NCBI RefSeq assembly: GCF_003591035.1
Contig: NZ_QYUO01000001.1
Span: 1,426,001-1,490,000 of the forward strand
DNA length: 64,000 nt
Direction of reading: 5' to 3'
Origin: Noviherbaspirillum saxi
GTDB taxonomy: Bacteria > Pseudomonadota > Gammaproteobacteria > Burkholderiales > Burkholderiaceae_D
The notes beneath the pieces are model-generated. The model had not been told where the DNA came from and did not search any database. It was given only the letters and a program-made list of their open reading frames with translations. Positions 12,566 to 62,917 of the stretch are shown here, one piece after another. Every line of letters begins with the position of its first letter. The first letter of the stretch is position 1. A program made the translations under genes and the position numbers.

Positions 12566-12773
12566 ATTGTCCTCGATTGATGAATGGCAATCGCTTGCTT
12601 GAAGTCATTGTATCGAAGGTGTGCCTTGAATCAATAGTCTGACAGGCAACTTTCACAGGTTTCTTTTGCGAATCCGCAAACGGCGTTGCGTAAAGTCAAT
12701 TGATCGCTGCATTCCGATAAAAGCCGGATTAATGGGCAACTGCAGAAAACCGAATTGCAGAAACCAATAAAAA

Positions 12774-12800
12774 AGCCCGCAGACCTTGCGGTTGCGGGCT
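12774..12800 (-). terminator. Rho-independent terminator
   Basis: The arms AGCCCGCA and TGCGGGCT enclose an 11-base loop, and on the minus strand the hairpin is followed by a run of six T (12768-12773). It lies about 140 bases downstream of the YgiQ-like gene and would end its transcript. Confidence 0.75.
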
Positions 12801-12941
12801 AAATCCAATTCAAGAAGAGTTGGAGGAGACACAATCACTATAGACGAGACTGGGATAATCCTCCGCTTTATTCTGGCAATACCTGATATATGAAATTTTT
12901 ATATCACTGCGTGAAGGCGGGTGAAGGCGGTAGCGGCCAGC

Positions 12942-23436: not shown

Positions 23437-23578
23437 ACTCAAGCTCGCAAGCGCTTGATGCGTCTCAAGCGTGGTGCGATGGTAGTGCAGGCCTCTGATG
23501 AAACAGCCGAAAATAATAGCCTTCGATGCTGTTCTCTACTATTACAGATTTCAAAACCCACCTTACGAGGGGAAAGCC

Positions 23579-24292
23579 ATGCAAAACGTATTCAGCCCGC
23601 TCGCGAGCGTTTGTCAGACGCAACTAGAGGCGTCACGACAACTCGCCGATACGATTTTCGCGGGAACACAGAAGATCGATCACATCATGCTTGAAGCCAC
23701 GCATCAAGCCTTTACCGACCAGCTCGAATTTGTCCAGGAACTGACCACCGCGCGCGATCCAGGTTCGCTTGGGACCGCTTTTCAGTCGCGATTGATGGCT
23801 CGCAATTCCGGTAAGGCGACCGAATATCAGCGCCAGTTGTTAGGTATTGTCGTCGAGATGCAAAGCGAAATTGGCAGGAACATGCAGAATTACGTCGAGC
23901 AAATTCGTAATCGTGCCGTCGATGGCATGAAAACACCGACAGAAATTAACGAGGCAGCCAGGGATCAACCCACCACGGATGGCTCACCTATTAATCCGCT
24001 CGCAGGCATGTTTTCGGTTTGGGAAAATGCGTTCAAGGACGCAGCCACACTCGCGCGCCGTAATATGAGCATGGCCGGCTCCATGGCACAAGACGCTGCA
24101 AAAGCAGCGAGCGACGCCGCAGCGAGCAATGCCAATGTGATCGCCGGCGTGAGCGAGACGTCTGCTGCGGCCGCAGCCAATTCAACCGACGCGACAGCGG
24201 ATGTCATTTCGTCCGCAACAGACGATGCAGGCGGCAGCGTATCATCCGACAAGAAAGGCTACCCGTCAGGAAGCTCCGGCAAGAAAAAATAA
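23579..24292 (+). CDS. Phasin family protein
   Basis: The ATG at 23579 follows GAGGGG and gives 237 residues; an in-frame extension to 23498 lacks a ribosome site. The N-terminal 120 residues match the phasin helical domain (QLEASRQLADTIFAGTQKIDHIMLEATHQAF, EYQRQLLGIVVEMQSEIGRNMQNYVEQ), which coats polyhydroxyalkanoate granules. The C-terminal part is an Ala/Ser-rich low-complexity tail with a basic end (SGKKK). Its position after phaB supports granule association. Confidence 0.9.
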   Translation: MQNVFSPLASVCQTQLEASRQLADTIFAGTQKIDHIMLEATHQAFTDQLEFVQELTTARDPGSLGTAFQSRLMARNSGKATEYQRQLLGIVVEMQSEIGRNMQNYVEQIRNRAVDGMKTPTEINEAARDQPTTDGSPINPLAGMFSVWENAFKDAATLARRNMSMAGSMAQDAAKAASDAAASNANVIAGVSETSAAAAANSTDATADVISSATDDAGGSVSSDKKGYPSGSSGKKK

Positions 24293-24298
24293 GCTGCT

Positions 24299-24458
24299 AG
24301 TGTAGTGTTTCACGTAGATTGAGACTGATAAAAGTGATGGATTTCGCGGCGAATCGAGGCGCACACCGCAGCAATAGCGAGCTATTGCGAGGATGTGCAA
24401 CGAAGAGTCGGCGTGAAAGACGCACTTTTATGTCTCAAGAAGAGTGAAACACTACACT
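24299..24458. repeat. Palindromic dispersed repeat, copy 1 (MITE-like)
   Basis: The ends are perfect 15-base inverted repeats (24299-24313 and 24444-24458). Inside, TGAGACTGATAAAAGTG on the left pairs with CACTTTTATGTCTCA on the right with a two-base bulge, and a central perfect stem CAATAGC-GA-GCTATTG (24372-24387) sits between GCACA and TGTGC. A related element lies at 62754-62917 and shares the core AGGCGC...GCRAGGAKGYGYAACG. There is no coding capacity. Starting six bases after the phasin stop, it may also end that transcript. Confidence 0.8.
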
Positions 24459-24549
24459 AAACTTTGCCACTGGACCGGTCTGCATGACGGTCTTGGCGGA
24501 TGTCTTGGGTAGATCGCACCTCTACGTTGCACCACTGAATGAACGTGAT

Positions 24550-62462: not shown

Positions 62463-62774
62463 ATGCGTTTAATCACCGTCAGTCTTGCGGCATTACTTAT
62501 CCTGATCCAGATCCCTTTGTGGATGGGTAAGGGAGGGTGGTTGCGTGTATGGGATCTGGACAAGCAGGTTTCCGCGGCTCAGAAGAAGAACGAAGAACTC
62601 AAGGCCCGTAACGCGAAGCTTAATTCCGAAGTCAAGGATCTGCGGGATGGCACCGGCGCCGTTGAAGAACGCGCCCGTTATGAGCTGGGCATGATCAAGG
62701 ATGGCGAGATTTTTATCCAGATTCTGCAGCCGAATGGTGCTCAGCCTGCCCCGGCTAGAGCAGTTTCACCCTGA
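62463..62774 (+). CDS. ftsB: Cell division protein FtsB
   Basis: The 103-residue protein has one N-terminal membrane helix ([19 protein letters not shown]), a coiled coil ([46 protein letters not shown]) and the FtsB sequence [11 protein letters not shown]. It bridges FtsL and FtsQ in the divisome. The last residues (ARAVSP) and the stop codon are encoded within the left end of the repeat at 62754-62917, so the C-terminus may have been altered by its arrival. Confidence 0.94.
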
Positions 62775-62917
62775 CTTGCCAGGCGAGGCCGAGGCGATTT
62801 GGCTGTGGAACAAGGCGCGGCGACGCGACATGGCTAGCCATGGCAAGGAGGCGTAACGCCGTGCCGCAGGCAAATCGTCCGGCATCGACGGCACAGTCAG
62901 GGTGAAATTGCTCTAGC
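62754..62917. repeat. Palindromic dispersed repeat, copy 2 (MITE-like)
   Basis: The ends are 23-base inverted repeats (62754-62776 and 62895-62917) with one G-T-type mismatch. Further pairs follow: GATTTGGCTG with CAGGCAAATC, GGCG with CGCC, ACGC with GCGT, and a central perfect CATGGC-TA-GCCATG (62829-62842). It shares the core layout and the segment AGGAKGYGYAACG with the copy at 24299-24458, yet the outer and central arms differ in sequence. The left end contains the ftsB stop codon. No coding capacity is seen. Confidence 0.8.

Follow-up and report, generated by a model that had tools for sequence, protein, structure and literature searches.

The Correia elements of Neisseria, also known as NEMIS or CREE, are, like the family described here, palindromic elements of about 105-157 bp with TA ends. 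They are marked by AACAAAAA ends, core ends CCGGTACGG and TCAGGACAA, the IHF sequence CTTCAGCACCTTA and a 105 bp short form, and RNase III, promoter and IHF functions have been reported for them in the part of the source drawn on here (PMC2649163). The same part states that the repeat is found only in Neisseria, can bind IHF and is bound or cleaved by RNase III, and a second account, also drawn on in part, describes Correia elements as unique to Neisseria (PMC5039591). RUP of Streptococcus pneumoniae is a MITE whose ends are of the IS630 type and whose targets are TA, with IS630-Spn1 as its presumed mobiliser according to the consulted section of its description (PMC2229807). RUP is likened to the present family by this description, and no shared module is claimed. 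An excerpted source counts Bor-1 of Bordetella among the stem-loop families (PMC2267715). Bor-1 and a MITE of Polaromonas JS666 are likened to the family by host alone, their Burkholderiales hosts overlapping those of the family, and both are possible members of it. A conserved imperfect hairpin that occurs alone or in inverted pairs is common to REP/REPIN and the present family, but the family has a longer core, and IS630-type repeats at TA delimit its elements.

The window, the whole stretch of 64,000 nucleotides analysed here from a home genome of 6.5 Mb in three contigs, contains two elements of this kind, A and B, together with the following features.

24298 to 24459, plus strand: element A, including both flanking TA (24298-24299 and 24458-24459).
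24344 to 24413, plus strand: hairpin module (core) of element A, located by covariance model R1 (76.1 bits, E 6e-20).
24298 to 24313, plus strand: outer terminal repeat of element A, TAGTGTAGTGTTTCAC, resembling IS630-family insertion sequence ends in L233-L237 (CTAGTGTAGTGCTTTCG / CTAGTGTAGTGCTTCG).
23498 to 24292, plus strand: gene upstream of element A, which we take to be phasin-like, with its stop codon at 24290-24292, five bases before the TA of A.
62754 to 62917, plus strand: element B, with flanking TA at 62756-62757 and 62914-62915.
62800 to 62869, plus strand: hairpin module (core) of element B, located by model R1 (64.7 bits, E 1.5e-16).
62756 to 62778, plus strand: outer terminal repeat of element B, TAGAGCAGTTTCACCCTGACTTG, resembling IS630-family insertion sequence ends in two genomes of the same genus, G002 and G009.
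62463 to 62774, plus strand: gene overlapping element B, presumably ftsB-like, with element B supplying its last codons (ARAVSP) and its stop.

Both elements are near-perfect hairpins. The predicted fold of A has an energy of -83.2 kcal/mol, against -40.3 for shuffles (sd 3.3, z -12.8), and that of B -109.4 kcal/mol against -60.1 (sd 3.6, z -13.6), with none of 200 shuffles as low in either case. The original prediction of two related palindromic elements with a shared core thus holds, as does its description of a central stem exchanged between CAATAGC/GCTATTG in A and CATGGC/GCCATG in B, and R1, the covariance model of the core, recovers both. The window contains no third member, the next best R1 match having an E value of 0.16. 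None of the 4227 Rfam models matched A or B at E up to 1, and six related loci gave no Rfam match at the gathering threshold. Elsewhere in the window, positions 12767-12831 of the minus strand match RF02278, the Rfam model of a Betaproteobacteria toxic small RNA (57.6 bits, gathering 50).

At the tip of the hairpin lies an asymmetric module, conserved and about 50 nt long, with the approximate layout AAGGCGC-AAACC-GCA-GCNATAGC-loop-GCTATNGC-GA-GG-A-TTTGC-AACG and conserved internal loops. The type B core is a variant of this general layout. Subfamily arms differ in sequence and remain self-complementary, and the asymmetric internal-loop pattern is common to subfamilies with unrelated arms. In a class of longer elements, 19 of the 21 loci tested have the left end again, inverted, some 180-210 nt rightward of the core. 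A second, inverted core lies about 110 nt away in 13 of 24 loci chosen mostly from this class, and in none of 24 other loci.

Further copies are abundant, as the original prediction required of a repeat family. Type B is present in more than 30 copies in the home genome (40 of 72 candidates scored) and type A in eight full-length copies with two partial relatives; element A itself has a 100% identical copy at three further genomic places. Several type B copies (L016, L018-L026, L029 and L030) are lengthened in the right half of their core by roughly 15 bp of additional sequence (GGCCTCGGCGGCCCC-like), itself a small palindrome. Twenty-eight family members, with the window types included as L001 and L031, went into model R1, which matches the home genome at least 50 times. 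Among 100 genomes, made up of the home genome and 99 relatives, 52 contain a match, and these cover 41 of 84 genera. The original prediction suspected similar sequences in betaproteobacteria, which was right but too narrow: in a draw of 200 genomes from the phylum, R1 matches 27 at E <= 1e-5, counting the home genome, and 13 of these 27 belong to other classes. A pattern scan of genomes of named species found at least 120 stretches, with Burkholderiales forming the majority among the 80 matches listed. Because copies L106-L225 were found through a fixed right-half pattern, conservation of their right half is there by construction, whereas the left half and the arms are unaffected. In a plasmid collection of 72,556 records, A has one match, the related element L163 has four core-only matches, and B has none; the neighbourhoods of these matches offered no further clue.

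On the Martelella plasmid pMM593 (L227; an alphaproteobacterium), the core lies inside quite different arms. Members from other classes and orders (L374-L387) retain AAGGCG- and CAACG-like marks, and three of them (L379, L384 and L386) lie in A+T-rich sequence. In a relative (L310, in G008), sequence with an inverted arm of the AATACCAATCTCAACC type directly follows ftsB, and L073 has a core-like sequence within arms similar to this type.

The same module can be recognised in Correia elements. Copies on viral contigs were located with a 21-base motif, 84 kb being searched, and may be called Neisseria Correia elements by the marks given in the consulted part of their description (PMC2649163). 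Although R1 was built without any Correia sequence, its best match in the 84 kb is the Correia short form, at full length (E 0.0049); the next eight matches are the long form, at 13.7 bits and E 0.24, and are individually non-significant. In local alignment, a short copy scores 52, against 26.6 for shuffles (sd 3.6, maximum 44), a score reached by none of 1000, and a long copy scores 38, which three of 1000 shuffles reached. The short form shares with the family the module AAGGCG..CCGCAG..GGCAAGG..GCAACG. The long form departs from the family core: about 50 bp are inserted in its loop, and the right half of the module is incomplete. Correia terminal repeats are of the TATAGTGGATTAA type, whereas A and B have other ends. 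Judged by these sequence likenesses, the module of the family and that of Correia probably share a common ancestor, and we hold this with good confidence; the apparent relation is one of superfamily kinship, not of membership of A and B in Correia/NEMIS. Searches of an open-licence library of papers showed no account of the module outside Neisseria.

The ends of the elements point to IS630-family transposases as their putative mover. The home genome carries IS630-family (PF13358) elements, five copies of which (L233-L237) end in CTAGTGTAGTGCTT, like the TAGTGTAGTGTTTCAC of type A. Three further loci (L239, L241 and L243) have the ends TGTCCTGAGTTAGAAGTTCG / TGTCCTGAGTTAGAAATTCG, like both ends of a Simplicispira copy (L147). 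For type B, the partners are IS630 elements of just over 1 kb in G002 and G009, with TAGAGC..TTT..TGAC ends (L367/L368). The G002 transposase belonging to these ends matches the NCBIfam IS630 model (E 5.5e-35) and Pfam DDE_3 (PF13358; E 6.8e-32). A related open frame exists in the home genome (L231; 125 of 153 aligned columns identical), beside which no TAGAGC end was found, and the search for an autonomous partner of the longer elements (with ends such as TAGAGCCTGTT) likewise found none. At L367 in G009, the IS630 element abuts an internally deleted small element, with CTCTAGAGC common at the junction. No fewer than three IS630 lineages are represented by the ends that accompany the module.

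Copies are 160-180 bp long, without a transposase gene, and are found in a YTAR context. In 103 elements with TA ends located by script (25 in the home genome and 78 elsewhere), the base before the left TA is C in 22 of 25 home copies and in 55 of 78 others, 16 of the latter having T, and the base after the right TA is A or G in 20 of 25 and 71 of 78, respectively. Loci without the element exist in relatives. Fourteen genomes of the same genus were compared at ftsB; three gave no ftsB match, and all 11 orthologues obtained have other coding tails, with the element absent within 90 nt after the stop. At a second locus (L024), the element lies exactly in the stop codon, and four orthologues (L324, L325, L326 and L328) have TAG, TAG, TGA and TAA at the same residue; L327 ends one residue later, and the alignment of L329 is not in frame. 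A search with the joined flanks of the 103 elements against the loci collected here gave one weak match only (L210 against L126), which was set aside. Because IS630-type ends, TA targets and loci without the element in relatives all coincide, mobility in trans is well supported, and so is the classification of A and B as non-autonomous mobile elements (MITEs) on TA targets. The original prediction that a transposase moves the hairpin in trans therefore stands as to mobility; it does not stand as to what is recognised, which is most likely the terminal repeats and not the hairpin.

The alternative offered by the original prediction was a structured RNA at gene 3' ends, that is, a host-domesticated RNA such as a terminator or mRNA stabiliser. 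Of 38 home copies, 16 lie between convergent genes, and the boundary TAG serves as a gene stop at 12 (simple ORF calls), both of which would suit such an RNA; moreover, Correia hairpins are RNase III substrates in the available part of their description (PMC2649163). The stop codons, however, can be accounted for by the manner of insertion. The first base of the element is G, and insertion into TAA or TAG rebuilds a TAG stop. Compared with all YTAR sites in the window, of which 13 of 128 are stops, the 12 of 38 is high (p = 2.6e-4), but compared with YTAR sites that are non-coding or stops (13 of 52, 25%), it is not (p = 0.22), and a separate stop-codon preference beyond target choice is accordingly rejected. 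In the absence of an excess over these sites, target choice plus purifying selection suffices for the stop location, and the 3'-end position is largely explained by the YTAR target and selection against coding hits. Six of the 38 copies lie between divergent genes, and the two loci compared, ftsB and L024, differ between species. Orientation relative to tandem genes is unbiased (seven same, nine opposite), and for this reason a host-selected 3'-end RNA is not supported; we regard it as very improbable.

Pairing has been maintained throughout the hairpin while its sequence changed. Arm complementarity was compared in 26 cluster representatives of the 145 full-arm elements among 154 distinct ones, the nine short-arm elements being dropped. 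Left arms pair better with their own right arm than, on average, with a foreign one in the core (7.5 vs 4.65), mid-arm (9.0 vs 3.0) and outer segments (8.65 vs 2.66), none of 2000 permutations reaching the observed value in any of the three, and the own partner is the best partner in 15, 18 and 16 of the 26, respectively. The outer arms thus differ yet stay paired, as noted at the outset from A and B. In the core alignment, 91.1% of cells are paired, and the compensating changes expected by the original prediction are found as double changes at 17 of 24 pairs, with 106 double-change cells against 32.7 in shuffled alignments and 16-33 with the partner slid.

Covariation of the outer arms does not by itself prove a folded molecule, as part of their self-complementarity comes from the need of both ends to suit the same transposase. 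Template-switch repair of quasi-palindromes would likewise keep arms complementary while their sequence drifts. The elements could then be ordinary MITEs, internally deleted IS630 elements in which only the ends are constrained and the palindrome is kept by repair with no selection on a fold, as the IS630 ends and TA targets would fit and as the preserved arm complementarity would allow. Such repair treats both strands alike and would give no excess of G-U over A-C; a palindrome kept only as double-stranded DNA is expected to show equal G-U and A-C from one-sided changes on either strand.

Changes were counted by parsimony on trees, with strand-symmetric pairing, in three classes of 57, 60 and 27 distinct sequences, unclassed elements being omitted. 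Strand-symmetric arm alignment replaced pairs chosen by RNAalifold because the latter favour G-U. Read on the AAGGCG..GCAACG strand, one-sided changes gave 215 G-U against 98 A-C, parsimony events that are not independent of one another (per class 90:33, 92:53 and 33:12, or 82:33, 91:57 and 31:18 with the other tie-break). Double changes led to standard pairs 210 times and to others 44 times. When only pairs predicted on both strands are taken, the bias shrinks to 47 G-U against 21 A-C, and with pairs chosen on the other strand the ratios are down to 17:11, 15:9 and 19:8. The bias is weak in recent type B copies (36 vs 27 sites and 44 vs 38, counted with flanking bases). Inside the core of the 26 representatives, A-C (33) exceeds G-U (5), an excess put down to a conserved C-A mismatch.

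Mutation may contribute to this bias. Per 1000 opportunities, paired columns show C>T at 22.4 vs G>A at 16.1 and A>G at 23.9 vs T>C at 16.9, and unpaired columns show C>T at 35.3 vs G>A at 27.5, with A>G (26.7) and T>C (35.1) reversed. The unpaired C>T excess is strong in class B (37.0 vs 13.6) and also seen in class II (42.4 vs 30.9). Since C>T is in excess at unpaired columns too, part of the G-U excess is possibly mutational, which favours the ordinary-MITE account to that extent. A mutational strand bias as the sole cause of G-U is unsupported for A>G, given the reversal at unpaired columns, and possible for part of C>T. Because the ordinary-MITE account also runs against the asymmetric internal loops common to subfamilies with unrelated arms, which recur as inverted pairs, we consider it unlikely. 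Covariation of the mid-arm and core and the bias of G-U over A-C support a folded single strand, and the strand bias suggests selection on the fold of one strand, RNA or single-stranded DNA. The original prediction of selection on a folded nucleic acid is supported by these observations, although the outer arms that had formed part of its basis do not prove it by themselves.

The strand under selection might be single-stranded DNA, forming a strand-specific hairpin read by a protein at replication or transposition, as in REP/REPIN with Y1 (RAYT) transposases or in integron attC sites. Strand-biased pairing, conserved unpaired bases and inverted module pairs in a REPIN-like layout would all suit such a hairpin, and G-T is also better tolerated than A-C in DNA. 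TA targets and IS630 ends, however, fit a DDE transposase. REP tags are reported as GTAG and CGTC in the part of the source consulted (PMC3733652), and no such tag is general in the core, the 28-row alignment having GTAG in 4 rows, GGAG in 8 and CGTC in 3, anywhere in the row. We judge a single-stranded DNA role unlikely, and RNA is the more natural reading of the folded strand. Since orientation relative to tandem genes is even, it is probably the element that profits.

The best explanation, in our view a probable one, is a superfamily of MITEs that are moved by IS630 transposases and share a hairpin module, with one folded strand under selection and Correia as a diverged branch. IS630-family (Tc1/mariner-type) transposases would act in trans on ends of about 25-30 bp and insert the element into the TA of YTAR, where its initial G would restore TAG in TAA or TAG stops. 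Between the ends lies the asymmetric hairpin module with its conserved internal loops. It occurs singly or in inverted pairs, is joined to ends from three or more IS630 lineages and is probably present, diverged, in the Correia/NEMIS elements of Neisseria. The family, its ends and target, the loci lacking the element, the covariation and the strand bias are observed here, whereas movement by an IS630 transposase and the nature and action of the folded strand are proposals. That strand would be RNA and would work on the element's behalf, allowing insertions into transcripts to be tolerated, and would not be a standing regulator of adjacent genes; its double-stranded hairpin may be processed or shielded, by analogy with the action of RNase III on NEMIS. 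The fullest form of this explanation, an ancient portable RNA module that is selected as a single strand, rides on many IS630 lineages across Pseudomonadota with Correia as one branch, and serves the element, is offered tentatively, at less than an even chance. Were it true, an inverted pair would let either strand yield a functional hairpin, and the module RNA might shield a disrupted transcript or engage the transposition machinery.

Four points are new: how widely the family is spread, its use of one module with several IS630 lineages, its apparent connection with Correia, and pairing that is biased by strand. Work on Correia elements goes back to the 1980s, and an account drawn on here in part describes them as unique to Neisseria (PMC5039591); they would now be placed in a superfamily that extends across Burkholderiales and, by the core model, reaches further orders and one or more additional classes of Pseudomonadota. 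The comparison separates what transposition needs, namely the ends, from what elements with unrelated ends have in common, namely the hairpin module. Finally, the strand bias opens a long-standing question to testing, namely whether selection acts on MITE hairpins as RNA or whether they only follow from palindromic ends.
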